From the NCBI RefSeq assembly GCF_000517085.1, contig NZ_KI912107.1:1178398-1242397 (forward strand): DNA of 64,000 nucleotides, written 5' to 3'. How positions within the stretch are numbered: position 1 is the first letter of the stretch; every line of letters starts with the position of its first letter. This DNA is from Saccharicrinis fermentans DSM 9555 = JCM 21142. Lineage in GTDB: Bacteria; Bacteroidota; Bacteroidia; Bacteroidales; Marinilabiliaceae. The translations under genes were made by a program, and so were the position numbers. The notes beneath the pieces are model-generated. The model had not been told where the DNA came from. It searched no databases and worked only from the letters and a program-made list of their open reading frames with translations. This document shows positions 16,367-63,456 of this stretch, in pieces.

Positions 16367-19300
16367 ATGAGAAAAATAAACCTTACACTATTCATTTATT
16401 TAGTATTAAATTTACTAGGTGTTTCGTCGGTTTCTTTTGGACAAACAACCGAAGAATTGCAAGCTTACTCTAAAGCTCAAGGTGATTTTTATCAAGATGC
16501 TTTTGAAAAGGGATTTCCTTCCTTAAAAGGAGCTGGAGGTTCGAATCCGAGTATTGCTGATAGCTACTGTTCGGAAACCGGGCAGGTTGATATTACGCCA
16601 GACAATTTGCCAGCAAATGCTGCTATAGTTACTTGGCAAATACGTACAGTGGTTGGAGGCGCTGAATATCATCCCGATTGGGGGGATGTTGTTGGTAGTG
16701 GTAGCTCTACTGTCCTGCAATTTCATACTGATAGAGTGGAATCTAAGTATTTCGGAAAAAGAATATATTTTGATTATTATATCTATGATTCTGGATATAC
16801 TCCGCTTGTGGTTGGATCTGATTATACTTTTGTTTATCAAACACCTACATTGTTTGATTTAACCACTGTCGATTCTTCTATTTGTCCAGGGGAATCTGTC
16901 GTTTTAAAGTTAGAGGATTCTGAGTCAGGAATAGACTATCAATTAAAGGATTCGGATGATAATGATATCGGCTTTTTAATAAATGGAAGTGCTAGTGAAA
17001 TAGAGTTTACTGTAAGTCCAAGTGTTAGTACAAGTTATTATGTAGCAGCAGTAAACTCTTTAAATAATTCGTGTTATAAGAAAATGAACGGGGATATACT
17101 TGTTACTGTTAATGATAACCCTGTTATCACTTCTTCAAGTTCTGATCCTGAAATTTGTTTAGGGAATTCATCTACTCTTAGTGCTACTACGGATATGGAT
17201 CCTGATGTGGATTATATATGGGATGATGGAGCGGGAAACACGCATAGCGGTTCGACCTGGACCGTTACTCCAATTTCTACTACAACGTATACTGTAACGG
17301 CAACTAATAGAAATACAGGGTGTAGTTCTAAAAATACAGAAACTATTACGGTCAACACAAATCCAACTATCACAGCTTCAGGTAATAGTCCGGTTTGTGA
17401 GGGTTCTAATATTTCATTAACTTCTGCTGCCAGTGGTGGTTCAGGATCTTATTCTTCCTATAGTTGGACGGGTCCTAATAGCTATACTGCCAGTAGTCAG
17501 AACGCCATCATCACTGGTGCTACTTCGCTTCAGGCAGGTGATTATTTTGTTACAGTAACTGACGATAACGGATGTTCCAGTGATGCTACAGATTTTACTA
17601 CGGTTGTAGTCAATGAACGACCTACAGTTTTGGTAAGCTACAATGCACCGGTTTGTAACGGTACAAATCTTGTTTTGACAGCTAGTCCTTCAGGTGGCAG
17701 TGGAACTTATACGAGTTATATATGGACAAAAAATAGTGTTGAGATAGTCGGAGAAACTGGAGCAACGCTCACGATCAGTAGTACAACAGCTTCCGATGCG
17801 GGCACTTATGGAGTTAAAGTGGAGGATGCTGCTGGTTGTATTAGTGACGAACAGACTGTTACAGTGACGATTCATTCCTTACCTGTGCCAACAGCTGGCA
17901 ATGATGGTCCAGTTTGTGAAGGAGGAACTATTCAGCTTACAGGAGGTCCCAATGGTATTTCTTATGCCTGGACAGGTCCCAACAGTTTTAGCAGTACAGT
18001 TCAAAATCCGGTTGTAAATAATATTACCCTGGCCGATGCTGGTACTTATACTTTAACGGTGACTGACGGTAATAGTTGTGAAGCGAGTGTCACAACAGAT
18101 GTAGTTGTAAATGCCAACCCAACTATCACAGCTTCAAGTAATAGTCCTGTTTGTGAGGGATCTAATATTTCATTAACTTCTGCTGCAAGTGGTGGCTCTG
18201 GATCTTATTCTTCTTACAATTGGTCGGGACCCAATAGTTATACCGCCAGTAGTCAGAATGCCATCATTACTGGTGCCACCTCGCTTCAGGCAGGTGATTA
18301 TTTTGTTACAGTAACTGACGATAACGGATGTTCCAGTGATGCTACAGATTTTACTACGGTTGTAGTCAATGAACGACCTACAGTTTTGGTAAGCTACAAT
18401 GCGCCGGTTTGTAACGGTACAAATCTTGTTTTGACAGCGAGTGCTTCTGGTGGCAGTGGATCTTATGCGAGTTATATATGGACAAAAAATAGTGTTGAGA
18501 TAGTCGGAGAAACTGGAGCAACGCTCACGATCAGTAGTACAACGGCTTCCGATGCCGCTACTTACGGAGTTAAAGTGGAGGATGCTGCTGGTTGTATTAG
18601 TGACGAACAGACTGTTACAGTGACGATTCATTCTTTACCTGTGCCAACAGCGGGTAATGATGGTCCTGTTTGTGAAGGAGAGACGATCAATCTTACAGGA
18701 GGGCCTAATGGTATTTCTTATGCCTGGACAGGTCCCAACAGTTTTAGCAGTACAGTTCAAAATCCGGTTGTAAATAATATTACCCTGGCCGATGCTGGTA
18801 CTTATACTTTAACAGTGACTGACGGTAATAGTTGTGAGGCGAGTGTCACAACAGATGTAGTTGTAAATACCAACCCAACCATCACAGCCTCAAGTAATAG
18901 TCCTGTTTGTGAGGGATCTAATATTTCATTAACTTCTGCTGCAAGTGGTGGTTCAGGATCTTATTCTTCCTATAGTTGGACGGGTCCCAATAGTTACACC
19001 GCTAGTAGTCAGAATGCCATCATCACAGGTGCTACCTCGCTTCAGGCAGGTGATTATTTTGTTACAGTAACTGATGATAATGGATGTTCTAGTGATGCAA
19101 CTACCTTTACTTCTGTCATAGTAAATGAACGACCTACTGTTTCGGTAAGCTACAATGCACCGGTTTGTAACGGTACAAATCTTGTTTTGACAGCGAGTGC
19201 TTCTGGTGGCAGTGGATCTTATGCAAGTTATATATGGACAAAAAATAATGTTGAGATAGTCGGCGAAACAGGAGCAACGCTCACCATCAGTAGTACAACG

Positions 19301-22300
19301 GCTTCTGATGCCGCTACTTACGGAGTTAAAGTGGAGGATGCTGCTGGTTGTATTAGTGACGAACAGACTGTTATAGTGACGATTCATTCTTTACCTGTGC
19401 CAACAGCCGGTAATGATGGTCCTGTTTGTGAAGGAGGGACGATCAATCTTACAGGAGGGCCTAATGGTATTTCTTATGCTTGGTCAGGCCCTAATAGTTT
19501 CAGTAGTACGGATCAAAATCCGATTGTAAATAATATTACCCTGGCCGATGCTGGTACTTATACTTTAACGGTGACTGACGGTAATAGTTGTGAGGCGAGT
19601 GTCACAACTGATGTAGTTGTAAATGCTAATCCAACCATCACAGTCTCAAGTAATAGCCCTGTTTGTGAGGGATCTAATATTTCATTAACTTCTGCAGCAA
19701 GTGGTGGTTCAGGATCTTATTCTTCGTATAGTTGGACGGGTCCCAATAGTTATACCGCTAGTAGTCAGAATGCCATCATCACTGGTGCTACCTCGCTTCA
19801 GGCAGGTGATTATTTTGTTACAGTAACTGACGATAATGGATGTTCTAGTGATGCAACTGTTTTTACTACGGTGTCTGTTAATGAAAGACCTACGGTTAGT
19901 TTAGCTTATAATAGTCCGGTTTGTTTGAATACAACATTGGAACTCACGGCTACAGCCTCAGGAGGGACTGGTAATTATGTAAATTACATATGGACCAAAG
20001 ATGGAAGCCCCATCGTAGGAGAAAACGCCTCTGTTTTAACTATTGACCCAGCAGCAATTAGTGATGCGGGTTCTTACGGGGTTATAGTGGAAGATGATGC
20101 AGGTTGTAGTAGTGATGAGCAGAGCGTTGCAGTTACTATTCATTCCTTACCTGTGCCAACAGCCGGTAATGATGGACCTGTCTGTGAAGGAGGAACAATT
20201 CAGCTTTCGGGAGGTCCCAATGGAATCTCTTATGCTTGGACAGGCCCAAACAGTTTCAGTAGTGCCGATCAAAATCCGGTTATCAATAATATTACCCTGG
20301 CTGATGCTGGTACTTATACTTTAACAGTCACTGACGGTAATAGTTGTGAGGCAAGTGTTACGACGGATGTAGATGTAAATGCTAATCCAACCATCATAGC
20401 CTCAAGTAATACCCCTGTTTGTGAGGGATCTAATATTTCATTAACTTCTGCTGCAAGTGGCGGTTCAGGATCTTATTCTTCTTACAGTTGGACGGGTCCT
20501 AATAGTTACACCGCTGGTAGTCAGAATGCCATCATCACTGGTGCTACTTCGCTTCAGGCAGGTGATTATTTTGTAACAGTAACTGACGATAATGGTTGTT
20601 CCAGTGATGCAACAGCTTTTACTACGGTTGCAGTCAATGAACGACCTACGGTTAGTTTAGCTTATAATAGTCCGGTTTGTTTGAATACAACATTAGTATT
20701 GACTGCTACAGCGTCAGGAGGGACTAATAATTATGTAAATTATATATGGACTAAGGATGGAAGTGTTATAGTCGGAGAAAATTCATCTACTTTAACAATT
20801 GACCCTGCTGCGGTTAGTGATGCAGGATCTTATGGTGTTACGGTGGAAGATGATGCCGGATGTAGTAGTGACGAAACTACCCTAGCTGTTTCCATTAGTG
20901 CTTTGCCTGTTGTAACAGCAAGTAATGATGGACCCGTTTGTGTAGGAGAGGATGTGACTTTGTCTGCTAGTGTCAGTGGTACAGTATCTTATAACTGGTC
21001 TGGACCTAACAGTTTTAGTAATGTTTCTAAAGATCCTGTTATTAATTCGGTTACTTTATCCGATGCTGGAACTTTTACAGTTGAAGTAACGGATGGTAAT
21101 GGGTGTGTTGGTTCTGCTTCCACAGATGTAATTGTGAATGATCTTTCATCTGCTATTAGTGTAAGTGCTCCATCACCTGGCTTGACCACTATTTGTGCTC
21201 GTGATACAGTGAGTTTTAATGCTTCTGGTTCAGATGGTTCAGGATCATATACGTACGATTTTCATTTGGTTAGAGGAGCTAGTGACTCTTCAGAACAAAA
21301 TAATTCCACCAATGTATTTACTACCTCTAGTTTACAGGATGGTGATAAGGTTTATGTGGTTGTAAATGATGTGATTAATGGCTGTACTCACACCTCTGGT
21401 GCCATCGAGATGACAGTAATTAGTAATCCTATACCGACTTTGAGTATTACAAGCTCAGGCGGCTCTACAATATGTTCAGGAGAAACTGTTGACTTTTTAG
21501 CCACACCAGGTACATTTAGTAGATATGTTTTTATGCGTAATGGAACAGATACTTTGCAAGATGGGACATCTAATCTGTTGTCAATTAATACTTTAAATGA
21601 TGGGGATGAAATTACAGTTGTTGCTTATGCAGGATCTTGTTTTGGTACTTCTACTGCTACTAAGATACAAGTGAATCCATTACCTACGTCTGACTTAGTT
21701 GCCGATAAAACGACTGTTTGTCAAAATGAGGTAGTCACTTTTACTGCTACAGCTGGAGGTACCGGACCTTTCCAATATCAATTTTATATTGATGGTGTGG
21801 CTCAGGGTGTTCAAGGTACCAATACATTTACGCATTCTGCAAGCTCTGATTTTTCAGTGGAAGCTGAAGTTTTCGATGGAAATAACTGTAGTGTGCTCAG
21901 TGCTCCAGTGGATATTAATATTAGTATTCCTGTTGCTGGTCTGATTGCTGATAAAACAAGTATCTGTGCAGGTGAAGAGGTGACTTTCACGGCTACAGGA
22001 GGTGTTTCGTATGAGTTTTTTGTGGATGGTGTATCTGTTCAAGGGCCTGATGTGAATGATGTTTATATATTATCTACCATACTTGATAATGATAATGATA
22101 ATGTAACCGTTACTGTTACCAATGCGACAGGTTGTACTGCTTCTCATGCGGGTATTAAGTTGACTGTTAATCCGATACCAACAGTTTCTATTAGCAGTTC
22201 TGATGCTGACAATACTATTTGTGCTGGAGATGAAGTGATTTTTACTGCCAGTGGTGGAGATGTATTTGAATGGTTTGTAGATGGAGTTTCGGTACAGGGG

Positions 22301-57397: not shown

Positions 57398-58942
57398 ATG
57401 GCAAAGAAGAAGAACGGAAACGGAGTGGAAGAAACGCTCGAAAAGAAGTTGTGGACTACCGCAGATAAATTGCGTAAAAATATTGATGCAGCCGAATACA
57501 AACATGTTGTATTGGGCTTAATCTTTTTGAAATATATTTCTGATGCTTTCGAGGAGCATTATGCCAAGCTTGTAGTCGGAGAGGGCGAATATGCAGGTGC
57601 TGACCCTGAGGACAAAGATGAGTATGGTGCTGAAAATGTATTCTTCGTTCCAGAGAAAGCAAGGTGGGCTTTTATTCAATCGCAAGCAAAGATGCCAAAC
57701 ATTGGTAAGCTGATTGACGATGCCATGGATTTGATTGAAGCGGATAATGCTACACTGAAAGGGATTCTTCCTAAAACCTTTGGACGTTCTAACCTTGACC
57801 CACAAACATTGGGCGGTTTAATTGATACCATTGGTACAGTAGCACTGGGCGATGAAAAAGCAAAAAGCCAGGATGTGCTTGGACGTGTATATGAATACTT
57901 TTTAGGTCAGTTTGCTTTGGCAGAAGGTCAGAAAGGTGGACAGTTCTATACTCCGGAGAGTATTGTAAAACTTTTGGTGGAAATGTTAGAACCATACAAA
58001 GGACGTGTTTATGACCCTTGTTGTGGTTCCGGTGGAATGTTTGTACAAAGTGAAAAGTTTATTGATAGCCACCAAGGACGTTTGGATGATATTTCGGTAT
58101 ATGGACAGGAAAGTAACCAGACCACTTACCGCTTATGCCGTATGAACCTTGCCATACGTGGTATTGATGGTTCTAATATTAAGTGGAATACAGAAGGTTC
58201 ATTCCTGAATAATGCGCATAAAGATTTAAAAGCCGATTATATCATTGCTAATCCTCCTTTTAACGTAAGTGATTGGAGTGGTGAATTGTTACATGATGAT
58301 GCTCGTTGGCAATTTGGAGTACCACCAGCAGGCAATGCTAACTTTGCATGGGTGCAACACTTCTTATATCACTTAAAGCCCGATGGCGGACATGCTGGGT
58401 TTGTTTTGGCTAACGGCTCATTAAGTTCCAATACAGGTGGTGAAGGTGCTATACGCCAAAAGTTAGTAGAAAACGACCTAGTAGAATGTATTGTAATGCT
58501 ACCTAAAGCTTTGTTCTTTAATACTGGTATCCCTGCTTGTTTATGGTTTTTGCGTAGAGGTAAAAAGCAACGCAATGGCGAAACTTTATTTATTGATGCT
58601 TCTGAATTGGGTTACATGATTAACCGTAAAAACAGGGTATTAGATGAAGAAAAAGATGTAAAGAAGATTGCAGATACTTATCACAAATGGCTAAACCAAA
58701 GTGACGAATATGAAGATGTAAAGGGATTTTGCAAATCGGCGACCATTGAAGATATACAAAAACACAAGTTTGTATTAACACCTGGGCGTTATGTGGGAAT
58801 CCCTGACGAAGAAGATGATGGTATTCCGTTTCAGGAAAAAGTTGATACACTTACTTCCCGATTACGTGAGCAAATGAACCAAGCCCAAGTTTTGGATAAA
58901 GAGATTGCAGAGCAGTTAAGTAAAATCGGCATCAAAATTTAG
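57398..58942 (+). CDS. hsdM: Type I restriction-modification methyltransferase subunit HsdM
   Basis: A 514-residue N6-adenine methyltransferase. It has the N-terminal HsdM helical domain (residues about 10-150, [20 protein letters not shown]), the SAM-binding motif I DPCCGSGG at 206-213, the catalytic NPPF at 285-288, and [15 protein letters not shown] before motif I. The C-terminal tail [15 protein letters not shown]...LSKIGIKI interacts with HsdS in known systems. A diverged copy of this tail appears again at 60741. It would pair with the HsdS at 60897; hsdR is not in the window. Confidence 0.95.
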
Positions 58943-59061: not shown

Positions 59062-60627
59062 ATGAAAATATCAGAACTGATAGCCAAAGGAGAAAGCAAA
59101 ATATTGGAGCTAAAAGAGGCTTTGCCAAAAAACGAGAATATTGCAAAAACAGTAATTGCCTTTTCAAATACGAGTGGAGGAAAGCTCATTATTGGTGTTA
59201 ACGATAAACGAGAAATTGTTGGAATTGACGATGCCGAACTGTTTCAAATGCAGGATAAAATAGCCTCCATTATTGCCGATAATTGCTCTCCGGGTATTAT
59301 GCCCGAAATATACAGCATAAATATCGAAGGCAAACTGGTATTAGTTATTGAGGTGGTACGTGGAAATCTGAAACCCTACTTTTTTAAGAACCAAGGAAAA
59401 GTCGATGGTACATATATCCGTTTAGGAGCAACCAACCGAATAGCCGACCAAGAAACCATTTCCGAACTTGAACGCCAAAAACGACACATCAGTTTTGATG
59501 AAGAAATATGTTACGAGCTTGAATATTCGCAATTAGATGTTTCGCCTTTGCTTAACAAATTCGAAAGCATTGGTAAGCCATTAAACAACGAGAAGCTTGA
59601 AAACTTAAAACTCATAAAGTCTGAAAATGGCAAGGTATATCCTACCAATGCTTTGATGATTATTTTAGGAAAATTTATGCACTGCACCGTAAAATGTGCA
59701 AGGTTCAAAGGCACAACCATGTCTGTTTTTATTGATAAAAAAGAATATGGTGGTGATGTGTTCTCTATTTTAGATAATACACAGCACTTTGTACTGAACC
59801 ACATTAACTTGGGTGCTGAAATAAAAGGTCTGTACCGCAAAGACATCTACGAAATACCTGAAATAGCCTTGCGTGAAGCACTTGTAAATGCCATTATTCA
59901 CCGTGATTATGTGCATGGAGGCAGAGATATTAAAGTGGGTGTTTACGATGACATTGTAAACATTGTGTCTCCGGGGTGTATCCCTAATAATATTTCGTTG
60001 GAAGATATATTTAATGGACGAAGCGAAGCTCGAAACCGTGTGGTGTCGAATATATTTAAAGAGCTTGGTTTAATTGAACAATGGGGCAGCGGAATTAATC
60101 GTATTATCTCTGCCTGTGAAGAGCATGAATTAAAAACGCCTAAAATCGCAGAAGAAAACGATTTCTTTGATATTGAATTTTATCGTCCACGGACGATTAC
60201 GGACGAAAAAATGTCGGGAAACGTCAGGAAACCGTCGGGAAAGCCCGAGTTGCAGCCTGAGTCTAAATCGGCACAGCCCGAGTTGCAGCAAGAGCTGAAA
60301 GCCCTATTAAAACAGGGTATTGAGAAAGAACAGCAAGAGTTACAGCAAGAATTTAAAGACCGACAGCCTGAGTTGCAGCCTGAGTCTTTATACGCAGCCT
60401 TAGTTCTAAGGCTGGCAGAAAATAACCTTTCAAAACAAGGTTTGGCTGATGCGCTAGGGCATAAAAGCATTTCAGGACAATTAAAAGTGGTAATTGCTAA
60501 GTTACTAGATGACCAACTAATAGAATGGACTATCCCTGAAAAACCCAACAGCTCAAAACAAAAGTACAAACTCACCAAACGAGGAGTTGCATTTTATGCG
60601 CTAATTAAGGTAAAAGATAAAAAGTAA
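59062..60627 (+). CDS. AlbA_2/HATPase-type ATP-binding regulator inside the RM locus
   Basis: A 521-residue protein with an N-terminal Schlafen-like AlbA_2 putative DNA/RNA-binding domain (about residues 10-125; LELKEALPKNENIAKTVIAF, SGGKLIIGVND). A helical middle and a HATPase_c_4-like domain (about 270-375; LREALVNAIIHRDYVHGG, GLIEQWGSGINRI) follow. Then comes a repetitive Gln/Glu-rich linker with recurring PELQPE/PELQQE blocks (about 392-435), and finally a winged helix (about 440-520). Such proteins are often found within type I RM loci with no fixed function. It has its own repeat-rich flanks, and a second copy of the hsdM tail follows it, so it looks inserted between hsdM and hsdS. Confidence 0.85.
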   Translation: MKISELIAKGESKILELKEALPKNENIAKTVIAFSNTSGGKLIIGVNDKREIVGIDDAELFQMQDKIASIIADNCSPGIMPEIYSINIEGKLVLVIEVVRGNLKPYFFKNQGKVDGTYIRLGATNRIADQETISELERQKRHISFDEEICYELEYSQLDVSPLLNKFESIGKPLNNEKLENLKLIKSENGKVYPTNALMIILGKFMHCTVKCARFKGTTMSVFIDKKEYGGDVFSILDNTQHFVLNHINLGAEIKGLYRKDIYEIPEIALREALVNAIIHRDYVHGGRDIKVGVYDDIVNIVSPGCIPNNISLEDIFNGRSEARNRVVSNIFKELGLIEQWGSGINRIISACEEHELKTPKIAEENDFFDIEFYRPRTITDEKMSGNVRKPSGKPELQPESKSAQPELQQELKALLKQGIEKEQQELQQEFKDRQPELQPESLYAALVLRLAENNLSKQGLADALGHKSISGQLKVVIAKLLDDQLIEWTIPEKPNSSKQKYKLTKRGVAFYALIKVKDKK

Positions 60628-60740: not shown

Positions 60741-60821
60741 ATGAGCGAACAAATGAACCAAGCACAAGAGCTTGACCAAGAAATTAAAGAGCAGTTAGGT
60801 AAAATTGGAATAAAACTTTAG
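60741..60821 (+). pseudogene. Diverged duplicate of the hsdM 3' end
   Basis: A 26-codon ORF that starts with ATG and reads SEQMNQAQELDQEIKEQLG, then KIGIKL. It matches the last residues of HsdM at 58868-58942 in about 19 of 24 positions, and the DNA in both is clearly related. It lies between the AlbA_2 gene and hsdS. I read it as the tail of a second hsdM lineage, left by recombination that brought in the AlbA_2 gene. It may still be translated but is too short to be a working methylase. Confidence 0.75.
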
Positions 60822-60825
60822 GCAG

Positions 60826-60900
60826 ATGACAACAGGTAAAATTACAAATGATTTAACTGCCCCGAAGGGATGGCAGACTAAAATTGGGATTGAGTTATGA
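60826..60900 (+). pseudogene. Detached N-terminal piece of hsdS (frameshifted)
   Basis: A 24-codon ORF (MTTGKITNDLTAPKGWQTKI, then GIEL) overlaps the hsdS start by the ATGA at 60897-60900. APKGWQTK is how HsdS proteins usually begin (PKGWxxxxLxE). The following frame begins MSELIELANYISRG, which would be its natural continuation. I infer that the original N-terminus was split by a frameshift and translation now restarts at 60897, possibly by coupling through the overlap. Confidence 0.5.
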
Positions 60901-62486
60901 GTGAATTAATTGAATTAGCAAATTACATTTCAAGAGGAATCACACCTAAATATACCGAGAGTGCTGACGGTTTTGGAGTAATAAATCAAAGGTGTATTAG
61001 AAATGGAGTTATTGATTTTAGCCTTGTTAGAAATACGGACTTGACAAAGAAGAAAGTTTCTGAGGATAAAATGTTAAAGAAATTCGATATTCTTATAAAC
61101 TCTACAGGCGATGGTACTTTAGGTAGGGTCTCGCAATATTTTGGAGAAGACAATAAGTATACTGTTGATTCACATGTTACAATTGTACGTCCGAACAGTT
61201 CACTAATCAACCCAGTATTTCTTGGTTTCAATTTATTTTCAAAACAAAGGTTCATTGAAAAGTTAGCAGAGGGTTCAACAGGTCAATTAGAACTTCCTAG
61301 GATTAGCGTAGGTAATATTGAAGTAAATGATGTAGATAAGGAATTGCAAGACCTTTCTGCAATATTATTGTTTAACATTCAAAATAAAATCACTCTTCTC
61401 CGCCAACAAAACCAAGACTTAGAAGAACTGGCCCAAACCCTTTTTAAACGTTGGTTTGTAGAGTTTGAGTTTCCCTGCCTTCCCTCGGACTATCGTCCTC
61501 ACGGGCAGGTAAACCTTGTAGATATGGCTAAGGTTTGTACTTATTCGCGAGTGGGTAATTTGCCTTCTCCAGATGATAAAAGTTGGTTTGTTTATGTGCT
61601 TTTGTGTGAAGATGGGTCATTCTATAAAGGCATGACAAATGATTTGTATCATAGGTTTTATGTGCATTACATTGGAGAAGGCGCTAACCATACTAAAACT
61701 CATAGACCTGTTAAAGTCATTCATTGGGAACAATTTGATACACAAGATGAAGCTCGCAAACGCGAAGAAGAGTTAAAAACAGGTTATTGTAGAACATGGC
61801 TTCAGCACCAATGGGATATAGCTAAAGGTGATTTACCTGCCCCTAAGTGCCAACTCAGAATGGCAGGCAAAATGGTGGAAAGTGAATTGGGTGAAATTCC
61901 GGAGGGGTGGAAATGCAATGAGTTACAAGAGTTAGTTACAGTAAAAAGAGGTGGTTCACCTAGACCAATTCAAGATTTCTTAGTTAAAGAAGGATTACCA
62001 TGGGTAAAAATATCTGATGCAACTGCCACATCTTCTCCATTCCTTATGAGTACAAAAGAATTTATTAAGGAAGAAGGCTTGTCAAAGACTGTGTATTTAA
62101 AAAAAGGAAGTTTGATTTTATCCAATAGTGCAACACCAGGTCTACCTAAATTTCTTGAGCTTGATGCATGTATTCATGATGGATGGCTCTATTTTCCAAA
62201 GATATCAGTAATTACTCAGAATTATATGTATTTATTATTTCTGCACCTGAAAAAGCATATTGTACAGCAGGGAAGTGGAAGTGTTTTTACAAATTTAAAA
62301 ACGGATATTTTAAAAGAGCAATTATTACCTGTTGCAACCACTGAAATTATAAAATCATTCGATTCTTTGATAGATTCATATTTTAATAAAATAAGAAACA
62401 ATACAAACGAAATTCAAACCCTTACTCAGTTACGAGATACCTTGTTGCCTAAGCTAATGAGTGGAGAGTTGAGAGTTACGAAATAA
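60897..62486 (+). CDS. hsdS: Type I specificity subunit HsdS with an embedded GIY-YIG module
   Basis: A 529-residue specificity subunit. The first target recognition domain covers residues about 1-155. A conserved helical spacer follows (NQDLEELAQTLFKRWFVEFE, 172-191), then an inserted segment at about 193-324. The second domain begins at GKMVESELGEIPEGWK (about 324-339), and the C-terminal helix ends LRDTLLPKLMSGELRV. Without the insert the protein would be about 398 residues, the normal HsdS length. The insert contains a GIY-YIG nuclease domain (residues about 230-305) with its key residues intact: Y233, Y243, R253 and a Glu in KREEELK. Whether the chimera still works as a specificity subunit is open. 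It would act with HsdM and an unseen HsdR. Confidence 0.9.
   Translation: MSELIELANYISRGITPKYTESADGFGVINQRCIRNGVIDFSLVRNTDLTKKKVSEDKMLKKFDILINSTGDGTLGRVSQYFGEDNKYTVDSHVTIVRPNSSLINPVFLGFNLFSKQRFIEKLAEGSTGQLELPRISVGNIEVNDVDKELQDLSAILLFNIQNKITLLRQQNQDLEELAQTLFKRWFVEFEFPCLPSDYRPHGQVNLVDMAKVCTYSRVGNLPSPDDKSWFVYVLLCEDGSFYKGMTNDLYHRFYVHYIGEGANHTKTHRPVKVIHWEQFDTQDEARKREEELKTGYCRTWLQHQWDIAKGDLPAPKCQLRMAGKMVESELGEIPEGWKCNELQELVTVKRGGSPRPIQDFLVKEGLPWVKISDATATSSPFLMSTKEFIKEEGLSKTVYLKKGSLILSNSATPGLPKFLELDACIHDGWLYFPKISVITQNYMYLLFLHLKKHIVQQGSGSVFTNLKTDILKEQLLPVATTEIIKSFDSLIDSYFNKIRNNTNEIQTLTQLRDTLLPKLMSGELRVTK
61473..61867 (+). mobile_element. GIY-YIG module with palindromic ends inserted in hsdS
   Basis: The insert in hsdS is framed by two palindromic stretches. 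On the left, CCTGCC (61474-61479) pairs with GGCAGG (61504-61509) around an inner GGAC-TATC-GTCC hairpin. On the right, CCTGCC (61836-61841) pairs with GGCAGG (61862-61867). The inner edges are an 11-bp inverted repeat, GGGCAGGTAAA (61503-61513) and TTTACCTGCCC (61832-61842). Between them lies the GIY-YIG coding part, with an in-frame internal Met at 61524. The whole insert is in frame. Ends of this type recall REP-like palindromes mobilised by a linked nuclease; that role is an inference. Confidence 0.65.
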
Positions 62487-62502: not shown

Positions 62503-63456
62503 ATGGCAAAGGCAGACCAAATAAAAAACTTAATTAAGATGCACTTTGATGGGCAAAACGAACGCTTCATCACTATTGCATTGCAGATAGCTGCACATGA
62601 AGCTAAGTTGGGTCATACAAAGCTTGCAGATGACATCAAGAAAATTATAGATAGTGCTAAAACACAAAAACCGAAGCTAAAGCCTTTAAATAGAGATTTA
62701 CAAGAATTGGTTATTGAGGTAGAACCAATTGAACGTATTTCAGATTTAATAGTTTCGGATAATATGTCTGAAAGAATTCAACGTATAGTAACTGAATATG
62801 TAAAGTTAAATACTTTAAGAAAGCATAATTTAACAAATAGAAGAAAACTACTCTTAACTGGCCCTCCAGGTACAGGAAAAACAATGACTGCATCTATTAT
62901 TTCAAATGAATTGAACCTGCCGTTAAATATTGTTCTAATGGATAAAATGGTTACGAAATTCATGGGAGAAACAAGTGCTAAATTAAGGCAAGTATTTGAA
63001 ATTATTTCTGAAAACAAGGCGGTATATCTATTTGATGAGTTTGATGCAATTGGAACTAATAGAAATGCGGAGAATGATGTAGGAGAAATGAGGCGTGTCC
63101 TAAATTCCTTTTTACAGTTCATTGAACAAGATAAATCAGAAAGCCTTATTGTCGCAGCTACAAACAATTTAAAACTGTTAGACCAAGCATTATTTAGACG
63201 TTTTGATGATGTTATTCATTACCATTTACCTAATGATGATGAAGTTTTACTTCTTCTAAATAATAAATTAGGTTCGTATAAAGATGATATTCAACTGGAA
63301 ACAATAATAAAAAAATGTCATGGTTTAAGCCATGCAGAAATATCCTTGGCATGTATGGATACTATAAAATCTTGCATTTTAAGTGATAAGAAAAAAATTA
63401 CAAAAACAATGCTTGTAAAAACAATTGAAGAAAGGAAACAAGCCTACATAAAATAG
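62503..63456 (+). CDS. ietA: AAA+ ATPase of an ietAS-like defence pair
   Basis: A 317-residue AAA+ ATPase. An N-terminal helical region (about residues 1-65) precedes Walker A GPPGTGKT (120-127), Walker B YLFDEFDAIG (D178, E179), sensor 1 AATNN, and the arginine-finger region LFRRFDD. It belongs to the FtsH/Cdc48-like classic AAA group. It lies 16 bp after hsdS and 7 bp before a gene that looks like the start of a subtilisin-type protease. That layout is the IetA-IetS defence pair, commonly carried next to or inside type I RM loci. The symbol rests on this arrangement. Confidence 0.8.
   Translation: MAKADQIKNLIKMHFDGQNERFITIALQIAAHEAKLGHTKLADDIKKIIDSAKTQKPKLKPLNRDLQELVIEVEPIERISDLIVSDNMSERIQRIVTEYVKLNTLRKHNLTNRRKLLLTGPPGTGKTMTASIISNELNLPLNIVLMDKMVTKFMGETSAKLRQVFEIISENKAVYLFDEFDAIGTNRNAENDVGEMRRVLNSFLQFIEQDKSESLIVAATNNLKLLDQALFRRFDDVIHYHLPNDDEVLLLLNNKLGSYKDDIQLETIIKKCHGLSHAEISLACMDTIKSCILSDKKKITKTMLVKTIEERKQAYIK

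Follow-up and report, generated by a model that had tools for sequence, protein, structure and literature searches.

A GIY-YIG nuclease domain nested in frame in a type I restriction-modification specificity gene: a candidate hairpin-bounded, homing-like guest that does not splice

The stretch of DNA considered here, 64,000 nucleotides of Saccharicrinis fermentans DSM 9555 = JCM 21142 (contig NZ_KI912107.1, positions 1,178,398 to 1,242,397; hereafter the window), carries a type I restriction-modification (R-M) locus whose specificity gene, hsdS, contains a GIY-YIG nuclease domain between its two recognition domains. The question raised by this locus is how a nuclease comes to lie inside such a gene without breaking it. 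The window element is most likely a homing-like nuclease guest, and we favour, with some reserve, the wider reading that a hairpin-bounded GIY-YIG guest spreads in a homing-like manner through type I R-M genes, being translated within the host protein and not spliced out.

The features of the locus are listed in Table 1. The frames of hsdM, hsdS and hsdR are all open, and that of hsdS is continuous across both edges of the guest. A first-pass annotation, made from the sequence alone, had placed a GIY-YIG module with intact key residues in frame between the recognition domains of HsdS, and this description of the gene is confirmed: one frame spans both edges, Pfam detects GIY-YIG (E 5.6e-13) together with two stretches of Methylase_S (best at amino acids (aa) 335-510), and the motif tyrosines, arginine and glutamate are in place. 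Assignment of the host as HsdS is based on the two Methylase_S stretches, the Specificity_I models, the two long helices, and the fact that HsdS structures are the best Foldseek matches of the predicted model.

The guest occupies about 130 codons between KRWFVEFEFP, which ends the first half of HsdS, and GKMVESELGEIPEGW, which starts the second. The annotation gave the extra sequence as about 130 residues; the extra in-frame stretch is real, but the size was too high, because the distance from LFKRW to the W of EIPEGW is 157 residues in the filled allele and 38 in the standard empty allele, a net gain of about 119. The filled allele lacks about 11 residues of the empty form (NENGEPYKSSG), and the guest at hsdS is therefore a replacement-type insertion. 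Guest-free HsdS proteins in the alignment have 398-460 aa, in agreement with the expectation that the protein without its module would be of normal length. No Rfam match was found in 61300-62000 up to E 1, on which ground the idea that the insert holds a group I intron or another known RNA was rejected, and no splicing domain was found in the window HsdS by Pfam up to E 1. The nuclease is thus surrounded by neither the self-splicing RNA nor the protein-splicing domain of a homing intron or intein.

Alleles without the guest were sought using the helix of the query HsdS that lies just upstream of it, which occurs at 30 places in 22 of the 71 family genomes. Twelve of the 30 fitted a text pattern and were read, and 18 did not fit. 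Two of the twelve are filled (the window and genome G045), eight are empty in the standard way, with FPNENGEPYKSSGGKMVESELGEIPEGW or a close variant of it at the centre, and two have other short inserts, so that ten are without the guest. One of the eight standard empties is an hsdS paralogue in the window's own genome. The empty alleles for which the annotation had called do therefore exist, and the module is not fixed in relatives. An hsdS allele of the same genus (L115) contains two short hairpins in opposite orientation, in frame and without GIY-YIG; the first is at TTTCCC...GGGTAAACC, the exact spot of the 5' hairpin of the window, and L115 is possibly a GIY-less form of the element.

Both the CCTGCC/GGCAGG palindromes that had been described as bounding the module and the 11-bp inverted repeat at its inner edges (GGGCAGGTAAA / TTTACCTGCCC) were located where they had been reported (Table 1). 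The pattern CCTGCCN{10,30}GGCAGG occurs twice in the window against 0.02 expected, and none of 100 shuffles contained two copies. The inner inverted repeat extends to 16 nt with 88% complementarity (61498-61513 with 61832-61847), which none of 200 shuffles matched. The same hairpin pair flanks the hsdS guest in four other species, where one 5' and two 3' hairpins have altered arms, mostly compensated. Over the five hsdS alleles, five pairs have changed on both sides in the 5' hairpin (1 of 500 shuffles as high) and five in the 3' hairpin (4 of 500), a comparison of five sequences only, with shuffles that do not remove relatedness. Two HsdR guests (L070, L077) have related inverted ends of the CCTGC type. 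The annotation regarded the idea as lost if there were no empty alleles and if the palindromes stood beside no other GIY-YIG gene; neither is the case. It might be supposed that the palindromes are there by chance and that the gene is an ordinary domain fusion, since the six-base arms are short and the inner stem of the window 3' palindrome is partly decayed. We give this very little credence, given the shuffled controls for both the paired copies and the paired changes.

Long GIY-YIG open frames yielded 17 in-frame nests, distributed over five sites in HsdS (5), HsdR (site 1, 7; site 2, 3; site 3, 1) and HsdM (1). Pfam finds GIY-YIG together with an R-M host domain in all 17. At hsdS the guest is at one position in five species with differing recognition halves. 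Distant empty alleles, used for comparison, suggest that insertion was clean at HsdR site 2 and in HsdM and fell directly after an Asp codon (WKTKD/GKT and PD/AWYD, respectively). A palindrome-bounded GIY-YIG element inserted into coding sequence without breaking it, as the annotation proposed, is thus supported by the empties, by the same hairpins in relatives and by five in-frame sites.

Host sequence flanks the domain on either side in 15 of 26 distinct GIY-YIG open reading frames (ORFs) with 250 aa or more, and in 15 of 15 the host is a type I R-M gene. The other 11 comprise seven N-terminal fusions (HsdS twice; a DprA-like protein, a MobA-like transferase, an FGE-sulfatase-domain protein, a pyridoxal phosphate (PLP) enzyme and RlaP once each), one with only a repeat tail, and three with a seemingly spurious upstream frame. 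Two more N-terminal fusions, to PurK of Ferruginibacter (L111, L112), lie beyond this census; they come from a set in which 14 of 30 fetched loci were examined, and L112 was judged by eye only, the other being checked by Pfam. The in-frame N-terminal fusions to RlaP, the PLP enzyme and the MobA-like transferase are L258, L209 and L065, respectively. The window's own genome has a second GIY-YIG domain fused to the N-terminus of a short HsdS (L080:6356-7408) through a linker of TTCGACAAGCTCA-type hairpins, and a DDE transposase gene lies downstream of this fusion.

The restriction of two-sided hosts to R-M genes raises a different explanation, that the GIY-YIG domain is an accessory nuclease, fused to R-M subunits for useful cutting and maintained because it serves defence rather than by selfish spread. 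In favour of this, nests occur in each of the three subunits without loss of frame, and selection on the domain is purifying (see below). The association also extends beyond nesting: among 96 nest-free GIY-YIG loci (some fetched twice), nine matches, representing eight distinct loci, lie no more than about 1.5 kb from a type I R-M-like gene, a count for which no background estimate was made. The neighbours are HsdM-like in L048, L051, L052, L055 and L056, HsdS-like in L039 and L047, and HsdR-like in L194. We nevertheless consider an accessory nuclease unlikely. Filled and empty hosts are interleaved even among close relatives, the positions used in the three subunits are unrelated and include the inside of the HsdR motor domain, and a plain fusion would not predict hairpin ends. 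In the same 96 loci a tblastn search with the halves of six R-M proteins found no GIY-YIG gene that splits an R-M gene out of frame, R-M genes being the ones that this search covered.

The nuclease belongs to the GIY-YIG superfamily (PF01541), in the UPF0213/Slx1-like branch. Among solved structures, its sequence matches are 1ywl and 1zg2, both UPF0213 proteins, the latter being matched also by fold (Foldseek, E 7e-4). Residues Y6, Y16, G18, R26 and E63 are invariant in 10 guests. The ratio of nonsynonymous to synonymous changes (dN/dS) is 0.04-0.15 in the 16 of 31 guest pairs with computable dS, the other 15 being saturated at synonymous sites; the set consisted of guests other than those of HsdR sites 2 and 3 and HsdM. 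It is concluded that the nuclease is under strong purifying selection.

There is no conserved start codon ahead of the GIY-YIG domain, and in L084, L086, L077 and L208 there is none within 45 codons. An ATG is present 26-33 codons upstream in six of the seven copies at HsdR site 1, where it corresponds to QTFM of the host itself. For want of a conserved start, expression of the nuclease on its own from within the gene was rejected, and its production is probably confined to the host protein. An AlphaFold2 model of the window HsdS, built from 14 sequences, has the order recognition domain, long helix, flexible linker, GIY-YIG fold, flexible linker, recognition domain, long helix, and would place the long helices at aa 148-189 and 482-521. 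The prediction was not confident (mean predicted local distance difference test score 73, predicted TM score 0.38), and its domain placement is unreliable.

At HsdR site 1 the histories of guest and host were compared. Of 30 fetched loci, 25 were readable and five did not fit the text pattern; five of the 25 are filled and 20 have no GIY-YIG, and some of the latter share 95% identity with the query across 98-99 residues. This is the presence and absence at one site among alleles that is typical of homing elements. The window's own HsdR has no guest at site 2. In a tree of 25 HsdR proteins with the insert removed (one filled row, L153, which is the L073 copy again, was omitted because of its short length), filled hosts do not cluster: the filled state needs six changes, at least three of them forced by well-supported branches. 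In a tree of 67 GIY-YIG domains (17 of 84 sequences, near-duplicates or distant, were left out), the seven site-1 guests form one clade with support 99/97, and 95/86 in a second tree. The guest data reject the host topology (approximately unbiased (AU) test, 0.024) and the host data reject the guest topology (6.8e-7), and over the 21 pairs guest and host identities are uncorrelated (rho 0.10, p 0.65). As an example, the guests of L071 and L208 are 85% identical and their HsdR hosts 60%. Because the guests form one clade and the hosts are scattered among empties, the guest would either have moved between alleles or have been lost repeatedly; the pattern agrees with a guest that moves laterally from one allele to another at the same site.

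These data also bear on the suggestion that the guest is an inert passenger of recombination, with one old insertion per site followed by spread of whole alleles and shuffling of hsdS halves. The single position of all five hsdS guests next to different recognition halves, and the single clade at HsdR site 1, would both follow from this. An inert guest should decay, however, and these have a dN/dS of 0.04-0.15; nor would a passenger be expected to produce the conflict between guest and host trees at site 1. We regard it as distinctly improbable.

In the 67-domain tree the HsdS guests and those of HsdR sites 2 and 3 form a second clade (100/99, seven members). The same support was obtained with all ten members, including the HsdM guest, and the clade is separate from 30 other GIY-YIG domains; in this 40-row tree 23 of the other genes were hand-chosen, and three of the nine best non-nested class matches tried were extractable. 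All ten members are nested in type I R-M genes (HsdS 5, HsdR 4 at two sites, HsdM 1). A profile of seven guests had matches at E 1e-15 in 97 of the 395 genomes of the class that were scanned. Its top four matches (E 1.3e-30 or better) are all nested, in the window HsdS, two HsdR proteins and an HsdM, and the next, at E 1.9e-21, is a frame of 103 aa. Within the genomes searched, this second nuclease clade is confined to R-M genes. In one order, one of seven genomes has a guest of this clade.

The guests at HsdR site 1 are bounded by a second family of hairpins, with the loop TTCGACARGCTCA, a variable stem and inverted orientation at the two ends; those of L069 are worn. At 94 distinct sites, stem positions 1-3 are paired in 79, 80 and 84 cases, compared with 32-44 expected. 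The motif occurs in 44 of the 71 family genomes, with up to 41 copies in one (G044); a reversed control gave 0 or 1 per strand, and 0 in G044. Three of the four copies in the window's own genome are beside its other small GIY-YIG gene. Hairpins of this family lie within 400 bp of 25 of 53 GIY-YIG loci, with a density of 1.10 per kb within that distance and 0.18 per kb farther out; the 52 control loci have 0.03 per kb and shuffled sequence has none, an enrichment of six times over more distant sequence and about 35 times over controls. The 53 loci are those of 100 listed that were placed by pattern; they include four HsdR nests (L045, L054, L058, L062) and a few N-terminal fusions, and one place (G514) was counted twice (L186, L238). 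The concentration near GIY-YIG genes indicates that a GIY-YIG-linked palindrome family exists. In one HsdR-site-1 nest (L208, genome G566) in-frame tandem amplification of the hairpin region is seen to either side of the nuclease domain (STSSPTAEDIEENSY, PELVDSV repeats).

The window's CCTGCC family is of a different, non-dispersed kind. The pattern occurs at four places in its own genome; two are the window element, and the other two are not near any of the genome's four GIY-YIG domains. A dispersed CCTGCC repeat was rejected on this count, and the palindrome does not have the many genome copies of a repetitive extragenic palindromic (REP) sequence. The exact form of the hairpin was not found beside a GIY-YIG gene outside the hsdS guests. 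The annotation's call to look for the palindrome pair with GIY-YIG elsewhere is thus answered by the four other species at hsdS and by the related ends in hsdR.

A further reading is REP-type transposition, in which hairpins would be the mobile units, the GIY-YIG protein would recognise them in the role of a REP-associated tyrosine transposase (RAYT), and both single hairpins and hairpin-GIY-hairpin units would insert. The fixed loop, covarying stem and enrichment of the TTCGACARGCTCA family would be explained, as would hairpins without GIY-YIG at the same spots, namely the two of hsdS L115 and a single one in an hsdR gene (L147). The 28 of 53 GIY-YIG loci with no TTCGACARGCTCA hairpin nearby do not fit, and neither does the non-dispersed CCTGCC hairpin. 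Transposition of this type overlaps with the reading preferred here and the two are not mutually exclusive; it is plausible, but on balance we doubt it.

The preferred reading, of a selfish, homing-like guest, builds on what the sequences show: nesting in frame, alleles without the guest, hairpin ends that covary, selection on the nuclease, a host range of R-M genes within the search, and discordant guest and host trees at HsdR site 1. Cutting, copying, the part played by the hairpins, the choice of R-M genes and a working host protein are inferred. The guest consists of a hairpin, a GIY-YIG reading frame and a second hairpin, free of stops in the frame used. It would have entered the conserved centre of hsdS in frame, giving an HsdS with a nuclease domain of about 120 residues between its recognition halves. 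As part of the host protein, this domain may nick or cut an empty allele, or a hairpin of single-stranded DNA, and repair would then copy the guest into the cut site, as in homing. Insertion at an in-frame point, into loops that tolerate it, would keep the host protein usable. R-M genes may be favoured as hosts for being long, loop-tolerant, non-essential and often exchanged between species.

Several points weigh against this. The insertion at hsdS is not clean, and the CCTGCC hairpin is not dispersed in its own genome. In six of the 17 nests (L084, L085, L086, L255, L257, L069) the ends do not match as inverted repeats beyond shuffles, 6 to 130 of 200 being as high, and in L256 and L078 the best end match is not the palindrome. 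The nests were chosen by long open frames, so that the census did not see out-of-frame insertions and the in-frame state is partly ascertained. The guest-tree test is of 88 columns and seven rows, and its 21 pairs are not independent; repeated loss, with recombination, could also give the scattered presence. Close to the insert, filled alleles have flanks that resemble each other slightly more than expected, which is not significant (permutation p 0.057; pairs above 85% identity were left out and L073 was unusable). The class-wide profile search scored at most 13 candidates per genome, and the structure model is weak. We give somewhat less than an even chance to the full proposal of a new class of mobile element, in which non-splicing, hairpin-bounded homing nucleases in three type I R-M genes are permanently translated and active while the host works.

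A phage or plasmid origin was considered and rejected. Viral contigs contain no relative of the window guest, a profile scan giving one weak match at 29% identity, and its two plasmid matches are distant (about 41%). Matches below 60% identity were obtained for the L077 guest in 13 phage and 3 plasmid records, and for the L072 guest in 8 plasmid records, with none above that level; the comparison with phage records covered the L077 guest.

Table 1. Features of the window locus (window coordinates unless stated) and positions of the in-frame GIY-YIG nests
Feature	Coordinates	Strand	Remarks
hsdM, same type I R-M locus	57398..58942	+	
hsdS with nested GIY-YIG domain	60897..62486	+	single open frame, 529 aa; Pfam Methylase_S + GIY-YIG; PADLOC Specificity_I models
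HsdS first half: recognition domain 1 and long conserved helix, to ...KRWFVEFEFP	60897..61475	+	
5' palindrome CCTGCC...GGCAGG, inner stem GGAC/GTCC, coding	61474..61509	+	compensatory changes, 5 alleles
Left arm of element-level inverted repeat, GGGCAGGTAAA	61503..61513	+	
GIY-YIG nuclease domain, aa 230-295	61584..61781	+	motif tyrosines, Arg, Glu present
Right arm of element-level inverted repeat, TTTACCTGCCC	61832..61842	+	
3' palindrome CCTGCC...GGCAGG, coding	61836..61867	+	compensatory changes, 5 alleles
HsdS second half: GKMVESELGEIPEGW, recognition domain 2, second conserved helix	61868..62486	+	
hsdR of the window's type I R-M locus	outside window, L259:4375-7596		
Nests, HsdS centre			window; Marinilabilia salmonicolor L084 (same contig as L013/L079); Bacteroidales metagenome-assembled genome L087 (same contig as L076); Saprospirales metagenome-assembled genome L085; Flavobacteriaceae F08102 L086
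Nests, HsdR site 1 (helicase domain, EcoEI-type family)			L067, L069, L071, L072, L073 (frame runs off its contig), L078, L208
Nests, HsdR site 2 (HindI-type family)			L070, L255, L256
Nest, HsdR site 3 (EcoR124-type family)			L077
Nest, HsdM near C-terminus			L257

Other features of the neighbourhood were observed. A Schlafen/AlbA_2 gene (59062-60627) lies between hsdM and hsdS, and downstream of it a 26-codon frame (60741-60821) repeats the HsdM C-terminus with 19 of 26 residues identical; it looks as if the arrival of the Schlafen/AlbA_2 gene had duplicated the end of hsdM. An IetA/IetS-like anti-phage pair lies between hsdS and hsdR (window 62503-63456; L259:1862-4363) and a PifA-like NTPase downstream of hsdR, the whole being a nested defence island. 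Elsewhere, at 17351-20674, the window contains a direct repeat with a period of 756 bp in five copies, four of them 86-92% identical to the first; if coding, this is a 252-residue protein repeat.

Mobile nucleases inside genes usually need an intron or intein to spare the host gene. A guest translated as an extra domain in anti-invader genes would avoid such harm in another way, and would make it testable whether guests alter recognition or cutting by the restriction system. The insertion points mark loops of HsdS, HsdR and HsdM into which a complete domain apparently fits, information of use in protein engineering. RAYTs are tyrosine transposases linked to REP palindromes. The likeness to the present elements is in short palindromes linked to an enzyme gene, and the difference is that the enzyme here is GIY-YIG: only Methylase_S and GIY-YIG were above cut-off in the hsdS frame, which is the sequence that this check for a RAYT covered. 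In Neisseria, the GIY-YIG nucleases of the Ssn family, which are site-specific and act on single strands, are likewise tied to repeated sequences of the genome; they are not known to be nested in coding sequence.

GIY-YIG homing endonucleases occur in introns and inteins (Dunin-Horkawicz et al., 2006; PMC1564403), and the guests resemble them in site-specific presence and absence, in the nuclease itself and in an apparent spread between alleles. Since no intron or intein was found here, the guest stays in the protein; the window element thus departs from intron and intein homing in having no splicing, as it does from RAYTs in having no tyrosine transposase. Rickettsia palindromic elements, of about 150 bp, lie in frame in protein genes that are described as unrelated metabolic genes, and are said to encode a conserved peptide (PMC10969869). 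The window element likewise combines palindromes with an in-frame position in a protein gene, but it carries a nuclease gene, and the two-sided hosts are R-M genes. In the open-access literature nothing was found on several sites, three subunits, hairpin ends and same-site spread, or joining GIY-YIG insertion in HsdR with in-frame palindromic elements; no text paired GIY-YIG with 'repetitive extragenic palindromic', and four 13-letter strings were matched in no paper.

The closest precedent is that of Dunin-Horkawicz et al. (2006; PMC1564403), who described a GIY-YIG domain inserted in the HsdR of Methylococcus capsulatus (ORF MCA0838), with a close homologue that is empty. They considered the insertion very recent and unique, doubted its relevance to the host, and raised the question whether further members might be molecular parasites; the string 'palindrom' does not occur in the text of PMC1564403. 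The view of the first-pass annotation that no description was known is therefore only partly right: a single HsdR insertion and the remark on molecular parasites were in print, and the multi-site, three-subunit, hairpin-ended form with same-site spread is what was not found. MCA0838 shares with the present guests the position in a type I R-M gene and the empty close homologue. As that paper presents it, it is one case in one subunit, whereas the present guests occupy five sites in three subunits and have hairpin ends, a tree in conflict with that of their hosts and a nuclease under selection, and the reading favoured here would generalise the single GIY-YIG insertion in HsdR reported in 2006.

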